A stretch of DNA of 64,000 bases from Candidatus Pantoea edessiphila (GTDB lineage: Bacteria; Pseudomonadota; Gammaproteobacteria; Enterobacterales; Enterobacteriaceae): positions 62,001-126,000 of the forward strand of contig NZ_PDKU01000002.1 of the NCBI RefSeq assembly GCF_002933355.1. The letters are read 5' to 3'. Below, in pieces: positions 16,198 through 26,684 of this stretch. The notes under the pieces were generated by a model. It saw only the letters and a list, made by a program, of their open reading frames with translations, had not been told where the DNA came from and did no database searches. The position numbers were made by a program, and so were the translations under genes. The first letter of the stretch is position 1, and every line of letters starts with the position of its first letter.

Positions 16198-19100
16198 ATG
16201 CCAAAACGAATAGATATAAAATCCATCCTGATTCTTGGTGCTGGTCCAATTATAATTGGACAAGCTTGTGAATTTGATTATTCTGGTGTACAAGCTTGCA
16301 AAGCTCTTAAATCTGAAGGGTATCGTATCATCCTAGTAAACTCTAATCCAGCAACTATTATGACTGATCCAAATATAGCTGATATTACTTATATTGAACC
16401 AATACATTGGAAAATAGTAAAAAAAATAATTGAAAAAGAAAAACCAGATGCATTACTTCCTACTATGGGAGGACAAACGGCATTAACTTGTGCGTTAGAA
16501 TTAGATCGTCAAGGTATACTAACGATGTTTAATGTAATTATGATAGGTGCAAATGCTGATAGTATTGATAAAGCAGAAAATCGCCAGCGCTTTGATACAA
16601 TCATGAATAATATTGGTTTAGAAACAGCTCGTTCTAGTACTGCAAAAACAATGGAAGAAGCTTTAATTATCTGTGATTATGTTGGCTTCCCATGTATTAT
16701 TCGTCCATCATTTACTATGGGTGGAGCTGGAGGTGGTATTGCATATAACTATTGTGATTTCAAGGAAATATGTAAACAAGGTTTTGATGTTTCACCTACT
16801 AATGAATTATTAATTGATGAATCATTAATTGGTTGGAAAGAATATGAAATGGAAGTATTACGGGATAAAAATGATAATTGTATAATAGTCTGTTCAATAG
16901 AAAATTTTGATGCAATGGGAATCCATACTGGTGACTCTATCACAGTTGCGCCTGCTCAAACATTAACAGATAAAGAATATCAAATTATGCGTAATGCTTC
17001 TATATCAGTAATGCGTGCAATAGGTGTAGAAACTGGTGGATCTAACGTACAGTTTGCAATTAATCCTAAAAATGGTCGTCTAATAATCATTGAAATGAAT
17101 CCACGTGTGTCACGTTCATCAGCATTAGCTTCAAAAGCTACTGGTTTCCCCATTGCGAAAATAGCTGCTAAATTAGCAGTAGGTTATACTCTTGATGAAC
17201 TGAAAAATGATATTACTGGAAATAGAATACCTGCTTCCTTTGAACCTTCTCTTGATTATATTATAACTAAAATACCACGTTTTAATTTCGAAAAGTTTCC
17301 TGGTTCAAATAATATTTTAACAACTCAAATGAAATCTGTTGGTGAAGTAATGGCTATAGGTCGTACTTTTCAAGAATCATTACAAAAAGCATTACGCAGT
17401 TTAGAAGTTGGAGTTAATGGTTTAGATTCTAAATTTAATGCAAGCTGTAATAAAAATATGAATGATATTCGTAATGCACTTAAAATAGCTAGTTCAGATA
17501 GAATCTGGTATATTGCTGATGCATTTCGGGCAGGTATGTCTGTATATAGTGTATTTAAGCTTACTAATATTGATAAGTGGTTTTTGATTCAAATTAAAGA
17601 ATTAATTAATCTAGAAAAACAGATAGTTGTCAAGGGTTTGAATTGTTTAAATAAATCATTTTTATATATGTTAAAACGTAAAGGTTTTTCTGATGCGCGT
17701 CTATCCAGTTTAACTGGATTAAAAGAAAATGATATTCGTCAGCTTAGATATTCTTATAACATTCATCCTGTTTATAAACGTATTGATACTTGCTCTGCTG
17801 AATTTGATACTAATACTGCATATATGTATTCAACTTATGAAGAAGAATGTGAATCTGATCCAAACGAAAATAAAGAAAAAATTATGATAATAGGAGGAGG
17901 ACCCAATCGCATAGGTCAAGGAATAGAATTTGATTATTGCTGCGTTCATGCTTCTTTAGCATTACGTGAAAATGGTTATGAAACTATTATGGTAAACTGT
18001 AATCCGGAAACTGTGTCAACAGATTATGATATTTCTGACCGTCTTTATTTTGAACCGATAACATTAGAAGATATACTCGAAATAGTAAGAATTGAAAAAC
18101 CTAAAGGAGTTATTGTTCAATACGGAGGTCAAACACCATTAAAACTAGCTAGGTTATTAGAAACCTTTGGTGTACCAATTATTGGTACAAGTACAGATTC
18201 TATTGATTGCGCTGAAAATCGTAATAGATTTCAACAATTAGTTAAAAGACTTAATCTAAAACAACCAGATAATGCTACTGTTATAACATTAGAGCAAGCT
18301 ATAAATAAAGCTACAGATATTGGTTATCCATTACTTGTGCGTCCTTCATACGTTCTAGGTGGACGTGCTATGGAAATCATTTATGATGAATTTGATCTTA
18401 AGCGTTATTTTCAATCAGCTATATTTATAGCTGATGATAATCCAATATTATTAGATCATTTTATAGAAGATGCGATTGAAGTTGATGTGGATGCAATTTT
18501 TGATGGTCATAATTTACTAATTGGTGGTATTATGGAACATGTAGAACAAGCAGGAGTACATTCAGGTGACTCTGCATGTTCGCTTCCGGCTCATACTTTA
18601 AACAATGACATTCAAGACACAATACGTCATCAAATAAAGAAATTAGCTGTCGAGCTAAAAATCAATGGTCTTATGAATGTTCAATTTGCGATTAAAGATA
18701 ATAATGTGTACTTAATTGAGATTAATCCACGAGCTGCACGTACTATTCCATTTGTATCTAAAGCCACTGGTATTCCGTTAGCAAAAGTTGCTGCATTAGT
18801 AATGATAGGAAAAACTCTATCGCAACAAAAAATGACTAAAGAAATAATTCCGCATTACTATTCAGTTAAAGAAGTAGTTTTTCCATTTGTTAAATTTCAA
18901 GGATCTGATCCTATTTTAGGTCCAGAAATGCGTTCAACTGGTGAAGTCATGGGTATCGGTAGAACTTTTGAACAAGCTTTTGCTAAAGTAATGTTAGCTA
19001 TTCAATGTAATATGAAAAGAAATGGCAGAGCATTATTATCGGTTAGAAAAAATGATAAAAAACGCATTGTTGATCTTGCAATAAAGTTAAAACATTTTGG

Positions 19101-19549: not shown

Positions 19550-20038
19550 ATGATCAGTATTATTGCTGCATTTGAATATAACAGATTTATAGGTTTAAAG
19601 AATAACCTGATGTGGAGGCTTCCTGTAGATTTATCTTGGTTTAAGAAAAATACTATCAATAAACCGGTCATAATGGGTAGACTTACTTTTGAATCTATTG
19701 GACGTGCGTTGCCGAAAAGGTTAAATATTGTTGTTAGTAAACGTTATAGTAAATCTAAAAATGTTATTTGGGCTTCATCTTTAGATGAAGCAATTAATAT
19801 CGTTAATACGTCTAATGAAATAATGATTATTGGTGGTGCTAGCATATATGAACAAACTATCAATTATGCTGATGCACTTTATTTAACTCATGTTAATACA
19901 ACTATTGATGGTGATAAAAAATTTCCTTACTATAATCCTTGTGATTGGAACCTAATTTTTAATAAATTTCATGATATTGATAAAGAAAATATTTATAGTT
20001 GTAATTTTGAAATTCTATATCGCAAATCAAAAAAATAA
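19550..20038 (+). CDS. folA: Dihydrofolate reductase
   Basis: NADPH-dependent reduction of dihydrofolate. 162 residues, E. coli 159. MISIIAAFEYNRFIG at the start, active-site region PVDLSWFKKNT with the Asp near residue 27, KPVIMGRLTFESIGR near 38-52 and IIGGASIYEQ near 93-102. In E. coli the Trp22 region reads MPWNLP; here it is LMWRLP. A TATAAT box lies at 19461-19466. Convergent with apaH, 26 bases apart. Confidence 0.96.
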   Translation: MISIIAAFEYNRFIGLKNNLMWRLPVDLSWFKKNTINKPVIMGRLTFESIGRALPKRLNIVVSKRYSKSKNVIWASSLDEAINIVNTSNEIMIIGGASIYEQTINYADALYLTHVNTTIDGDKKFPYYNPCDWNLIFNKFHDIDKENIYSCNFEILYRKSKK

Positions 20039-20064
20039 ATCTTAAGGATAATATTTTTATTATA

Positions 20065-20880
20065 TCAATTTACTATTTTATTAATTCTATAATATTTACT
20101 TTCTTCCCAATGTAAAAGTGTAAGAGTTCCTCCCCAGCAACAGCCTGTATCTAAAGGAATAATTTTTTCTGGGGTACCTTTACCTTTTAGCGCAGACCAA
20201 TGACCAAACACTATTGTATAATTATTTGTTAATTCAGTTTTAATATTAAACCAAGGTGTTATTGATAAATGATTTTTTCCTATAATATTTTTAGAAAACA
20301 TTTCTAATTGACCATTTTTAAAACAATATCTCATTCTTGTTAACACATTGGTGATAAAACGCAATCTAGCTAACCCACTAAGTTTTTCATCCCAATTATT
20401 AGGCATATTCCCATACATAGAGTTAAGAAATAATGGATATACATTGCTGGATAGTACTTTTTTTATTTCATATGCACATTTTTTTGCCGTTTTTAAATCC
20501 CACTGTGGAGTAATTCCAGCATGTGACATAATTATTTTATTTTTTTCATCTATTTGTAGTAGCGGTTGACAACGTAGCCAATAAATTAAGTTATCAATAT
20601 CCTTAGCTTCTAAGAGATGTGTCAATTGATCTTTGGGTCTATCGATATTAATTCCAGAATAAATTGCTAACAGATTTAAATCATGATTACCTAAAACTAA
20701 TCGGATAGATGTTTCAATAGATTTTACATAACGTAATACATCTAATGAATTAGGCCCGCGAGCTACTAAATCACCAGTCAACCATAAAATATCTTTTTTA
20801 GGATTAAAATTTACTTGATTCAATAAAATACGAAATTCTTCATAACAACCATGAATATCACCAATTAGATATGTACTCAT
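20065..20880 (-). CDS. apaH: Bis(5'-nucleosyl)-tetraphosphatase, symmetrical (Ap4A hydrolase)
   Basis: Splits Ap4A into two ADP. About 271 residues, PPP-family metallophosphatase: GDIHGCYEE near 7-15, [10 protein letters not shown] near 37-46 and LGNHDLNLL near 63-71 are the metal-binding motifs; [11 protein letters not shown] and FGHWSA follow. The ATG at 20880 is used because it gives the family N-terminus [11 protein letters not shown]; an ATG 30 bases upstream lacks a Shine-Dalgarno. In E. coli apaG lies between rsmA and apaH; here it is lost. Confidence 0.95.
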
Positions 20881-21315
20881 AGATTTTAAAATCCACTTTA
20901 AAATTATCATTTAGTTAATGAAATTATTGTACTAAATAGATATAAATCTTATTGCAAATTTGGAGTTTTGGAATTAATTAATCATGATGTATGATTTATT
21001 CCACTACTTATAATATTAAGTTGTAGCAAATGTGATATTTTAATCAATATATATCTAATGATTTCATTAAATTTACTAACTGATTAAATATGTAACGTTC
21101 TGTTTATTTATTTATATTGTATTATAAATTTCTATTTATTAAAAATTGTTATTAGTAATTTGAAACTTCATTAATTTAATAAAAGGTTTATTTTGTTAAT
21201 ATTATTGATATTACAGATGATAACAAAATAATTAGGTATTTCCTTGTTACCTTTAATTTTGTGTGTAAAATTTGATCTAAATAAATAATATATTGTAATT
21301 TATATTTATTTATTA
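20881..21315. other. Gene-free gap where apaG is expected, with hairpins
   Basis: 435 AT-rich bases between rsmA and apaH, about the size of apaG (125 codons) plus spacers. I see no readable ApaG remnant. It holds a perfect 11-bp inverted repeat (21188-21198 with 21221-21231, 22-base loop) and a 10-bp one touching the rsmA end (21278-21287 with 21303-21312). Either could end the surA-pdxA-rsmA transcript, which would leave apaH needing its own promoter. Confidence 0.55.
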
Positions 21316-22140
21316 TTAAGTTGAAGAATTATAATTTTTATCATTAGCTAACCAATTCGCTAAACTACAATATTCTGAGACTGAAACATTTTCTGCACGT
21401 AGGGAAGGATCAATATACAGTTCTTTAAGAATACTTATAGGAATTATTTTATTTAAACTATTTCTCAGTGTCTTACGACGTTGACTAAAAGCTATAGTAG
21501 TGATGTACTTAAGTAAGTTTAAATTATTTACTTGATGTATTAGTGTTTTATGAGGAACTAACCGAATAAATGTAGAATATACTTTCGGTGCTGGTATAAA
21601 AGATATGGGATTTACTTCTAATAACGAAATAATTTTACAGTAGTATTGTGTCATTACACTGAGACGGCCATATTTTTTATTACCTGGACCAACAATCATA
21701 CGATCAGCTACTTCTTTTTGTAGCATAAAATGCATGTCTTTAATGTATTTAACGTATTTAAAGAGATAAAATATAAGTGTAGTAGATATATTGTAAGGTA
21801 GATTTCCAAATATACGAATTGGTTTTTGTCTTTCTAAAGATAATGCTTTAAAATCAAATTTCAAAGCATTATCTCGAAAAATATTTAACTTATATCTTAA
21901 TTCATTATCTTCTTTTAATTTTTTTATAAGATTATTATCTAATTCAATTACAATTAATTTATTAATATTTTCACAAATTTGTTTTGTTAAAGCACCTAAA
22001 CCTGGTCCAATTTCTACTAATAATTGATCATTATTAGGATTAATAGCTGATATTATATTAGCAATCACATTATGGTCAGATAAGAAATTTTGTCCTAAAT
22101 TTTTTCGGACATAATGTCCTTGATATATAACGCTATTCAT
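21316..22140 (-). CDS. rsmA: 16S rRNA dimethyladenosine transferase (A1518/A1519)
   Basis: Dimethylates two adenines in helix 45 of 16S rRNA (KsgA). 274 residues, E. coli 273. SAM-binding [14 protein letters not shown] near 42-55, catalytic NLPYNIST near 114-121, and RRKTLRNSL near 219-227. Its ATG lies inside the pdxA end (8-base overlap), so it is coupled to the frameshifted pdxA; this predicts that the pdxA message is still made. Confidence 0.97.
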
Positions 22141-23121
22141 TATTAATTTTAATCATATTAATTGCAAGATTAACTGCCATAAAAAAACTTTCTGAGTTAA
22201 TTTTTCCTTTAGAAGCTAATTCAACTGCAGTTCCATGATCAACAGAAGTTCTAATAAAAGGTAAACCAAGGGTAATATTTACTGCTTTATTAAATGAACA
22301 AAATTTCAAGACTGGTAACCCTTGATCATGATACATAGCTAAAATTACATCAGCATTATTTAAGTACTTGTCTTGAAAAATAGTGTCTGCTGGTAATGGT
22401 CCTGTTATGTTTAGACCTTCTTTTCTAAGATTATTAATGACAGGAATAATAATTTCAATTTCCTCTTTACCGATATAACCACCTTCACCTGCATGGGGAT
22501 TTAATCCACAAACGTAGATAGAAGGATCTTTAATAGAAAATTTTTTTTTAATTCATTATGTAAAATATTAATGATTACATTTAAATTATCTTTCGTAATA
22601 GCATCAGCAACATTTTTTATTGGCAAATGAGTAGTTGCTAGAGCTACACGCAAATTATTATTTACTAACATCATAACGACTTTATCAACACCTGTGCGAT
22701 TAGCAAGAAATTCAGTATGACCAATAAAAGGTATTCCAGCCTCATTAATAATACTTTTATTTACCGGTCCTGTAACCATTGCTTTAAATCTTCCTTTTAA
22801 ACATTCATCACATGATTTTATTAAAGTTTTTATTACATAATTACTATTATCTATTGATAATTTACCTGGAGTTACCTTTTTCGATAATTCTATAGGAATT
22901 ATAGCTAAACTACCTTTTTTTTTCTTTCTATTGCTATTAGAATTATATTCATACAATGATATAGGTAAATGTAGCTGAGAAGCACGTTGATATAGTAAAT
23001 CTGCGGAAGCACATACTACTAATTCAACAGGCCAATTTTTTTGAGCTAATTGTATTGTAATATCAGGACCAATCCCTGCAGGCTCACCTGGAGTTATAAT
23101 GATACGAGGATAATTAATCAT
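22133..23121 (-). pseudogene. pdxA: 4-hydroxythreonine-4-phosphate dehydrogenase, frameshifted in an A9 run, possibly rescued
   Basis: NAD-dependent step of PLP synthesis. The N-terminal part (23121-22501) starts MINYPRIIITPGEPAGIGPD and has GHTEFLA, then shifts out of frame at nine A's (plus-strand T's 22541-22549) and stops. The other frame continues without a stop through [28 protein letters not shown] and [18 protein letters not shown] to 22133. Adding one A gives 329 codons, the E. coli length. The zero frame reads TTA AAA AAA, a classic -1 slippery heptamer. The rest of the gene is well kept, which is unlike an old pseudogene. Overlaps surA and rsmA by 8 bases each. A sequencing indel is the main alternative. 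Confidence 0.9.
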
Positions 23122-24400
23122 TATTATGTTTTATAATTTTAATATAAGACTTTGAAATTTTTTGTTGTATTAAATATTCAAGTTCTTCATATATTTTATT
23201 ATTAATAATATTCATAAAAGAAAGTTTTTTTTGTATTGTATTATGATTACTTATTGTATTCATATCTGATTTATAAAGGATATACCATCCTGAATTAAAG
23301 AAAATTGGTTGAGTTATTTGATTATTTTTTAAATTTTTTAAGGTATTATTAATATTTTGAACAGAACTGTTATTAAATAATATCCATCTTGAATTAATAT
23401 TTTTATCTACAAAAAATAAATTTTTGTATAACTGTTTAATTGTATTTTTAAGATTGATTTCTTTTGAATTAAATTTAGATATAATATCCTTCAGCTGTAT
23501 TAAAAATTTTTTCTTTTTTATAGTATCTGAATTTAATTTTTTAAAGAATACTTTAATTTGCATATCGTTTGAAGTAATATTGTTATTACTATCTAAATCA
23601 TTTATTTTTAAAATATGAAAACCAATTCCAGAACGGATTGGACCAACTATATCACCTTTTTTTGAATTCATTATTTCTTTAACAAAAATACTTGGTATTT
23701 TTTTTATTTTACTCCAGCCCATATTTTCTATATTTATTGAATATGGAATATTTTTTTTTAATTCGTAAATATTATTATTTCTTTTAAGTTTAATAACTAA
23801 ATTTCTAGCTATATTTTCTTTTTCATATAATTGATGTTTATTTGGATTTTCTGGTAAAGGTACAATCACTTGACTTAAGTTTATTTCTCTCTCATTAAAT
23901 TTATTTAAGAAAACCTGATTAGCTAATCTAGTTATTTCTTGAGGATAAACAATAATTCTATTTATTAACTCTTTACTACTAATAATGGAAACTATTATTT
24001 GCTTTTTTATTTGTTTTCGATATGAATCGTAATCAATATTATTACGTGATAAAGTTTCAAAAAATTGATTCATACTAGTATGATGCATAGTAGATATTTT
24101 TTTTATAATCATATCTATTTTATCATTTGTAACCATTAGCCCTATTTGTTTTGCCATTTGAAAAATAATTGTATCTACTATTTTTTTTTGAATAATCTGA
24201 TTACGTAATGCGTCATAGTCAGGAAATTGTTCACCTTCAAGATAAAATTCAGATTTTAATCTTTGTATATAACTGGTTATTTCGCTTTCAAGAATTATAT
24301 CGTTATTGACTATTACTGCTATTTTATCTTCTAATTTAGTTGCTGCAAATAAATTTAAGCTTATTAATATGTTAATAATTAATATTCCTAATTTTTTCAT
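23114..24400 (-). CDS. surA: Periplasmic chaperone / peptidyl-prolyl isomerase SurA
   Basis: Chaperone for outer-membrane proteins. 428 residues, E. coli 428. Signal peptide MKKLGILIINILISLNLFAA, then the N-terminal chaperone domain beginning KLEDKIAVIVNNDIILESEI. One parvulin domain is recognisable (about 175-275; NMGWSKIKKIP, GDIVGPIRSGIGFHILKI). The second is badly eroded (about 285-390), keeping only NSRWILFNN and FFNSGWYILYKSD. It is one of the most diverged proteins here and very Lys/Asn/Ile-rich. lptD, its usual upstream neighbour, is missing. Confidence 0.9.
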   Translation of the reverse strand: MKKLGILIINILISLNLFAATKLEDKIAVIVNNDIILESEITSYIQRLKSEFYLEGEQFPDYDALRNQIIQKKIVDTIIFQMAKQIGLMVTNDKIDMIIKKISTMHHTSMNQFFETLSRNNIDYDSYRKQIKKQIIVSIISSKELINRIIVYPQEITRLANQVFLNKFNEREINLSQVIVPLPENPNKHQLYEKENIARNLVIKLKRNNNIYELKKNIPYSINIENMGWSKIKKIPSIFVKEIMNSKKGDIVGPIRSGIGFHILKINDLDSNNNITSNDMQIKVFFKKLNSDTIKKKKFLIQLKDIISKFNSKEINLKNTIKQLYKNLFFVDKNINSRWILFNNSSVQNINNTLKNLKNNQITQPIFFNSGWYILYKSDMNTISNHNTIQKKLSFMNIINNKIYEELEYLIQQKISKSYIKIIKHNND

Positions 24401-24421
24401 GTTATATCTTATCCGCTGTAA

Positions 24422-24448
24422 TATACTATATATTATATACTATATATT
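24422..24448. repeat. Two-copy AT-only style tandem repeat upstream of surA
   Basis: The 13-mer TATACTATATATT occurs at 24422-24434 and again at 24436-24448, just upstream of the surA start. It may overlap its promoter; its low complexity makes chance or slippage likely. Confidence 0.6.
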
Positions 24449-24666
24449 TAAAGTTATTATATTGAAAATAATGTGTTACTGAAATCTTGAGATGTCAATA
24501 TTAAATTTATTAAATTATATATTTTTATAATTGATATTCAGTATTTCTGCAATAATACATATAATCATGTTATTACAAATAAATATTAAAAATATATAGA
24601 GAGATTATGAATTTAAGAATAATATATAAATAATATACGAATATAAAATAAATAACACGATTAGAT

Positions 24667-25278
24667 CTAATTCATAAACTTAAGATTATTTTTTTCATAC
24701 TGTGAAATTAATGGTTCATATTGTAACGTTAATCGAATATTGTCAATTCCATTAACAATACATTCACGATGATATTTATCAATATGAAAAGAATAGATGT
24801 TATTTTCTGTAAATATATTAGATTTCTTAATATCAATACTAAACATAATACCGCTATTATTATTAACCAAATAAAACATTTCATCTATTTCTTTATCTTT
24901 TAATATTATGGGTAATAATTGATTATTAATACTATTTTTATAAAAAATATCTGCAAAACTAGGTGCTATAATAATACGAAATCCAAAATCTACTAAAGCC
25001 CAAACAGCATGCTCTCTTGATGAACCGCAACCAAAATTTTCGCGAGTTAGTAATATACTTGCAAATTTAAATTCTGGTTTGTTAAGAACAAAATATAAAT
25101 TTGGTATCTTACCAGACATATCTTTATAACGCCAATAATGAAACAAATTTTTACCAAAGCCAATACGTGAAATTCTATGTAAAAATTGTTTAGGAATAAT
25201 TGCATCGGTATCTACATTAGCTATATCTAAAGGTGCAACAATTCCAGTGTGTTGAATCAGCTTTTTTAACATTTTCAT
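24667..25278 (-). CDS. leuD: 3-isopropylmalate dehydratase small subunit
   Basis: With LeuC isomerises isopropylmalate. 203 residues, E. coli 201. IVAPLDIANVDTDAIIPKQF near 14-33 and NFGCGSSREHAVWAL near 76-90 are family signatures; the C-terminus ends KFMN as in E. coli. The ATG shares bases with the leuC stop (TAATG), with AGGAG inside the leuC end. Last gene of leuABCD. Confidence 0.97.
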   Translation of the reverse strand: MKMLKKLIQHTGIVAPLDIANVDTDAIIPKQFLHRISRIGFGKNLFHYWRYKDMSGKIPNLYFVLNKPEFKFASILLTRENFGCGSSREHAVWALVDFGFRIIIAPSFADIFYKNSINNQLLPIILKDKEIDEMFYLVNNNSGIMFSIDIKKSNIFTENNIYSFHIDKYHRECIVNGIDNIRLTLQYEPLISQYEKNNLKFMN

Positions 25279-26684
25279 TAGCTCCTGATATTTAATTCAC
25301 GAACATCAACAAAATGACCGTTTATAGCAGCTGCTGCAGCCATTAAAGGGCTAACAAGATGTGTTAATCCTCCACGACCTTGACGACCTTCAAAATTTCT
25401 ATTACTTGTAGAGGCACAACGTTCACCTGGATTTAAACGATCTTCATTCATAGCTAAGCACATTGAACATCCTGGCAAACGCCATTCAAAACCAGCTTCT
25501 AAAAAAATCTTATCTAAACCCTCAGATTCTGCTTGTGCTTTTACGATTCCGGAACCTGGAACTACTATTGCTAAAACACCTGATGCAACTTTTTTACCTT
25601 TTATTACCATAGCTGCTGAACGTAAATCTTCAATTCTAGAATTAGTACAGGATCCAATAAATACTTTGTCAATATTAATATTTGTTAACTTTGTATCTGG
25701 TTTTAACTTCATATAATTTAATGCTTTTTCAGCTGATATTCGTTCAATTGGATTAGAAAATAAACTAGGATTAGGTACTGATTGATCAATTGATATGACT
25801 TGACTCGGATTTGTACCCCATGTTACTTGAGGTGCTATTTCTGAAATGTTAACTTCTATTATAGAATCAAAATTAGCATGATGATCCGATTTTAATGTAC
25901 GCCAGTATTCAACTGCTTTTTCCCATTCTTTACCTTTTGGAGAAAATTTACGATTTTTTAAATATGTAAAGGTAATATCATCTGGTGCTATTAAACCTGC
26001 TTTTGCACCCATTTCAATTACCATATTACATAAAGTCATTCGACTTTCCATGCTCATCTGATTAATAATAAAACCAGAAAATTCCACGACATATCCATTT
26101 CCTTTACTACTACCTAAATGTCCAATAATTGCTAAGATTATATCTTTTGCAGTGATACCAACTGACATATTACCTATCAAATGAATTTTCATTGTTTTAG
26201 CTCTATCTTGTTTTATAGTTTGTGTCGCTAAAACATGTTCTACTTCTGACGTACCAATACCGAAAGCAAGAGCACCGAAAGCACCATGAGTTGATGTATG
26301 AGAATCACCACAAACAATAGTCATACCTGGCAAGGTTATACCTTGCTCTGGACCCATAACATGTACTATTCCTTGAAATGGATGATTAATATCATACAAT
26401 TGAATCTTGAATTCTTTACAATTTTTTATCAGTTCTTGCATTTGGATACGTGATAACTTTCCTGATGCATTGATATCTTTAGTGATTGTAGAAACATTAT
26501 GATCCATAGTTGCAAAAGTTTTACATGGCTGACGTACTTTTCTTAGGTTTGTTCTAAGATTATTAAAAGCTTGAGGTGAAGTAACTTCATGAATTAAATG
26601 TCTATCTACATACAATAATGGTATGTTATCAGTTGTGTTATGAATAATATGAGCATCGAATATTTTTTGATATAGTGTTTGCAT
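25278..26684 (-). CDS. leuC: 3-isopropylmalate dehydratase large subunit
   Basis: Aconitase-family Fe-S subunit. 468 residues, E. coli 466. Substrate loop [20 protein letters not shown] near 131-150. Cluster cysteines are in FIGSCTNSR (near 345-353) and GCSMCLAMN (near 409-417). It starts 4 bases after leuB and overlaps leuD. Confidence 0.97.

Follow-up and report, generated by a model that had tools for sequence, protein, structure and literature searches.

A poly(A) frame break in pdxA of Candidatus Pantoea edessiphila and its probable correction by transcriptional slippage

The DNA analyzed here is a window of 64,000 nucleotides from Candidatus Pantoea edessiphila, in which surA, pdxA and rsmA lie on the minus strand. 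The coordinates of these genes and of the other features discussed below were listed in Table 1. The pdxA gene is broken at a run of nine A's (A9), where it is one base short of frame. The zero frame runs from an ATG at 23121 to a TAA at 22503-22501 and reads GAA TTA AAA AAA AAT TTT CTA over the run, and the second frame stays free of stops between 22552 and its end at 22133. Profile searches with NCBIfam models matched the N part to positions 1-192 of TIGR00557 (E 1.9e-56) and the C part to positions 191-319 (E 2.1e-63), which indicates that there is a single break point and that no stretch of PdxA has been lost. When one extra base is supplied, the gene has 990 nt and encodes 329 amino acids; the PdxA chains 1ps6 and 1ps7 of the PDB, which we take to be those of E. 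coli, comprise 328 and 329 amino acids, respectively. The main observations of the initial annotation were thus confirmed, including the loss of frame at the A9 with a stop at 22501 (correct on re-reading of the coordinates), the later PdxA motifs kept in the other frame, the restored length of 329 codons and the overlaps of pdxA with both surA and rsmA, each of which amounts to 8 nt.

Table 1. Features of the pdxA locus and the second poly(A) frame break found in the genome
Feature	Position	Strand	Remarks
surA	23114..24400	-	8-nt overlap with pdxA start; SurA model E 3.6e-81, under the curated cut-off
pdxA N part	22501..23121	-	zero-frame ORF, 206 aa, the last ~13 out of frame past the run
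second A9 of pdxA	22915..22923	-	in frame
A9 run, frame-break site	22541..22549	-	one base short
pdxA C part	22133..22540	-	135 codons and stop; open back to 22552; TIGR00557 191-319
rsmA (ksgA)	21316..22140	-	8-nt overlap (22133-22140) with the stop of the pdxA C part
rluD break	L175:792-1762 (A10 at G000:C8:3479-3488)		also L193, L185

The C part was also considered as a separate C-terminal protein and rejected, the first ATG, GTG or TTG of its frame being an ATG at 22336 from which just a 67-aa ORF can be read (22133-22336). A scan of positions 20000-25500 for promoters and terminators returned 40 promoter-like sites, compared with 50.7 in shuffled sequences, and no terminator. An ATG suited to rsmA was seen by eye just before the pdxA stop in all five other genomes of the genus, whose rsmA starts are unannotated. 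The proposal that the break site sets rsmA levels was therefore left unsupported, since a similar overlap can be read by eye in these five relatives, whose pdxA keeps its frame there. By stopping early, at 22501 and 361 nt ahead of the start of rsmA, translation might weaken whatever coupling there may be between pdxA and rsmA. The neighboring surA was found to be the fastest-evolving among 48 compared ORFs (mean distance 0.74), and it contains six in-frame copies of A_AAA_AAA, two of them within A9 runs, with no frame break.

A pdxA gene scoring above the cut-off was detected in 78 of 99 genomes, the present one counted. Among the relatives of the same genus, pdxA is one open frame in G001, G002, G004 and G005, and in G003 it spans two contig ends, the stretch over the site being in one frame. 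The homologous A-run measures 8, 9, 5, 6 and 8 in G001 to G005, respectively, and is in frame in all five, so the lost A is particular to the present lineage and the pdxA frameshift is not one that has been kept across diverged lineages (0/5 other genomes of the genus). The site also lies within one frame in six genomes outside the genus, which were chosen by hand among those with good pdxA matches. A scan of the C part against named genomes gave no near relative among the matches listed, the best identity among them being 70%.

Trees and rate tests covered G001, G002, G004 and G005, for which the counterpart of the rest of the window was included, and left out G003, in which pdxA lies on two contig ends. 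The branch of the present genome takes up a fraction of 0.197 of the tree in the C part (0.181 in the N part), with a median of 0.199 over 46 window genes (interquartile range 0.179-0.220, range 0.082-0.277). In relative rate, the C part stood at 1.07 and the N part at 1.18, and the 48 ORFs compared (both parts included) had a median of 1.05 and spanned 0.77-1.22; the N part, which precedes the break, is accordingly near the top of the range in rate and ordinary in its own-branch fraction. The 135 codons of the C part contain zero stops, and its differences are concentrated in third positions like those between intact relatives. The four relatives in the tree share 75-77% protein identity with the present genome, which implies a long terminal branch on which the break is undated. 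These comparisons suggest that the C part is under purifying selection, as a single estimate spanning the time before and after the break, and the constraint on pdxA appears to be that of a gene which is in use or was broken very recently. As a nearby decay control we used apaG, two places along from pdxA and assigned to its family from the G001 copy. G001 and G004 carry an intact apaG, the G002 copy is broken and that of G005 is down to 35% identity, and no match to the gene was obtained anywhere in the window, including positions 20911-21315 between rsmA and apaH.

The other genes of vitamin B6 synthesis were also searched for in the genus. Whole-model matches to pdxJ and pdxH were recovered from all six genomes, and the C-terminal domain of PdxB was recovered from five of the six, with no hit in G004; in the present genome PdxB occupies an open frame of 382 amino acids. 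By their sequences pdxB, pdxJ and pdxH look intact, and a pathway kept on either side of PdxA argues for the use of pdxA.

Because the split gene otherwise looks maintained, the cell probably corrects the frame during transcription. We consider it probable that one A was lost by replication slippage and that RNA polymerase slips on the run in a fraction of transcripts, bringing these back into frame. A single A would have been lost from the poly(A) run of pdxA on this lineage, for which replication slippage is the simplest cause. RNA polymerase would re-copy A's on the A9 template, generating some mRNA with 10 A's, from which full-length PdxA would be translated. The remaining mRNA would give the 206-aa fragment without the C-terminal 135 residues; as these presumably hold two of the three metal-binding histidines, the fragment would very probably be inactive. 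The partial output of full-length enzyme would then be sufficient for vitamin B6 synthesis.

Such rescue in AT-rich endosymbionts, to which the initial annotation had appealed, is indeed a documented class (PMC5009743, PMC3017870 and PMC4389277; all papers given by PMC number are cited from the accessible part of their text). The share of transcripts corrected by slippage in symbionts is given as 12-50% (PMC5009743, from its reference 244, taken here as Tamas et al. 2008), and PMC3017870 mentions a figure of 30%. Homopolymeric tracts held 151 of the 157 transcription insertions of Buchnera, and the insertions of both E. coli and Buchnera are mostly single bases in A/T runs (PMC5574713). The break in pdxA and that in rluD, described below, each require an insertion, which is the same direction as the usual transcription errors. 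Several observations count against rescue. A transcriptome survey of Buchnera detected zero frame-restoring transcription errors, according to the accessible part of PMC5574713, an E. coli reporter with the plastid atpB oligoA minus one A had ~5% residual activity, and an A8 tract was insufficient for slippage in plants (both PMC8254509). The A9 of pdxA is at the short end for slippage, which likewise counts against rescue.

The first alternative is a recent null mutation, in which the loss of the A has left too little time for decay of the C part, pdxA being a young pseudogene. The break is lineage-specific and undated on a long terminal branch, the relatives compared not being close strains, so it could be recent. 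Moreover, pdxA is reported to be a pseudogene in B. obliquus (accessible part of PMC4389277), hence the loss of the gene is tolerated in some hosts. However, the loss would have to be recent indeed, for neutral simulation of the C part placed the first stop at a median of 0.02-0.04 substitutions per site, with the 95% point at 0.09-0.17. The rate of the C part is not raised either, and the retention of pdxB, pdxJ and pdxH also speaks against a null gene, so that we regard this alternative as unlikely.

The frequency of similar breaks was then estimated in the window and in the genome, a reduced one of the insect-symbiont type, which has a size of 0.84 Mb and a GC content of 0.274 in its sampled part. 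The comparison with four relatives took in 48-50 window genes for each (~18,400-19,000 aligned residues per relative); pdxA was the sole split gene, and all four relatives agreed on the split. Many small split ORFs of the first window census were gone once ORFs lying mostly inside a longer ORF had been removed. Two weaker split calls in the relatives were supported by one query each; the one in G001 is a short start-end mismatch, and the one in G002 concerns apaG. A9 runs are not rare, the window containing 9 as compared with a mean of 19.3 in shuffled sequences. The 300,163 bases sampled from the genome contain 85 poly(A) runs of nine or more, 76 of which are traversed by an open frame of 150 codons or more, a number to which pdxA and rluD each contribute one frame. 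Overlapping A9 places numbered 103, three of which were left out unless they fell within the sampled stretches. Outside the window the scan covered only breaks at A9 or longer runs and required 35 or more codons to either side as well as a gain of 35, so that it misses breaks located close to gene ends or in shorter runs. Four places were flagged, among which those at pqiB/pqiC and uppS/cdsA were rejected as overlapping or abutting neighbor genes with no frameshift, leaving frame breaks at 2 of the 85 runs, in pdxA and rluD. The longest poly(A) of the sampled stretches is an A14 at G000:C9:60948-60961 (L181), where no frame break was flagged. Apart from these runs, part of a 12.9-kb contig (L147, G000:C1:9800-12700) resembles plasmids of Candidatus Erwinia haradaeae at ~72%; the ORFs of this contig appear by eye to be thiamin-synthesis genes, and it may be a plasmid.

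The second gene, rluD, is one A short at an A10 and is split after ~60 codons. The same frame change at the A10 is present in rluD of G002 and G005, making three separate assemblies in all, and rluD is in frame in G004 (A11), G001 (A7) and G003 (an interrupted run), so that the break is found in three of six genomes. Downstream open frames of 263-271 amino acids have been kept in the three broken lineages. In an unrooted tree of 46 genes and five taxa, G002 pairs with G005 as its sister (support 100) and the present genome is placed apart from them (split support 88), which means that the rluD break either goes far back and was later undone or has arisen at least twice. The RluD C parts of the sisters G002 and G005 are 74% identical and still open. 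The RluD branches are 0.19, 0.20 and 0.25 in the frame-broken lineages vs 0.36 and 0.42 in the intact G001 and G004, and the shorter branches of the former are the pattern that a still-used gene would show. On these sequence comparisons rluD is the best indirect evidence for working frame correction in the genus, and it is a possible candidate for an old or recurrent slippage-dependent gene. With three diverged lineages that carry the break and three that do not, rluD offers a natural test of the persistence of frameshifts.

The second alternative is an assembly or read error, the real genome having 10 A's. Indel errors commonly fall in long homopolymers, and the pdxA break was seen in one assembly only. 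Against such an error stand the absence of any other split gene in the window comparison, the A9 or longer runs elsewhere that are passed by open frames, and the recurrence of the rluD A10 break in three separate assemblies; we therefore judge it to be improbable.

A third route to the same protein is -1 ribosomal slipping on A_AAA_AAA. The initial annotation had pointed out that this heptamer lies in the exact register for a -1 shift, which is true, although as a special feature of the site it did not survive: any A9 holds A_AAA_AAA in all three registers, so that its presence in register is automatic and uninformative, and 30 in-frame copies were counted in 20 of 46 other window ORFs (taken from stop to stop, so that a few pre-start codons are possible), the heptamer being common in intact genes. 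Its use as special evidence was thus rejected. A hairpin of -12.7 kcal/mol was predicted ~15 nt past the run in a 61-nt downstream segment (z -1.62, with 15 of 200 shuffles as good), while the fold of the longer 103-nt segment had a z of -0.37. No Shine-Dalgarno-like element was seen by eye upstream of the run, and conserved use of the shift was not found, all five genus relatives being in a single frame at the site. Ribosomes are known to slide along AAA repeats, and for a plastid atpB oligoA with two A's added the authors favor translational correction, whereas with one A added they could not exclude transcriptional slippage (PMC8254509, in its accessible part). Despite the fitting register and the hairpin, ribosomal slipping is very unlikely to be the main rescue route, given that A_AAA_AAA is a much poorer shift site than A_AAA_AAG for E. 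coli ribosomes (PMC5009743), that the z of the longer fold is -0.37 and that relatives in the genus show no such shift.

Under transcriptional slippage, pdxA (vitamin B6) and rluD (ribosome modification) join the genes of reduced genomes that look broken in DNA and are probably expressed. If pdxA were annotated as a pseudogene, the loss of vitamin B6 synthesis would be inferred. We tentatively raise a broader possibility, itself rather doubtful, that poly(A) correction in this genus is so good that one lost A in an important gene is nearly neutral, so that genes such as rluD drift in and out of frame (A10, A11) and pdxA has lately entered that state. If this is true, the genus could show directly how RNA polymerase sets which frameshifts evolution tolerates. 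A literature search brought no paper on such a pdxA or rluD frameshift to our notice, which is weak evidence, as most subscription titles were outside its reach.

The pdxA site can be compared with several known systems. It resembles E. coli dnaX, a case of programmed -1 ribosomal frameshifting, in having an A-rich heptamer in register. Frameshifting in dnaX uses stimulators, whereas the pdxA site has no clear stimulator and its shift is not conserved. The heptamer also differs, being A_AAA_AAG in dnaX (PMC5009743) and A_AAA_AAA in pdxA. As in tssM1 of Citrobacter rodentium, a case of transcriptional slippage, an A run shortly precedes a premature stop and added A's restore the frame, but the run of tssM1 is an A11 and both of its products are needed, whereas that of pdxA is an A9 and its short product is very probably functionless (tssM1 from the accessible part of PMC4256274). 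With the cases of Buchnera and Blochmannia, pdxA shares an AT-rich reduced genome, a single poly(A) indel and a gene that is otherwise open and constrained. Poly(A) frameshifts of these two symbionts are reportedly rescued by transcriptional slippage, in work ascribed to Tamas et al. in 2008 and Wernegreen et al. in 2010. The pdxA indel is single and lies within an A/T run of at least 9, as in the symbiont slippage class. It differs in that pdxA is not named as frameshifted there in the accessible parts of the sources. For each of six Blochmannia genomes, 4-8 genes of this kind are tabulated (PMC4389277), and lineage-specific frameshift cases were also counted in B. vafer (PMC3017870). Urease is common to the three Blochmannia genomes compared in PMC3017870, and urease alpha was found in none of the six genomes of the present genus, which is therefore probably not Blochmannia. 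The pdxA of this lineage would add a new instance to a kind of rescue that insect symbionts have shown before.
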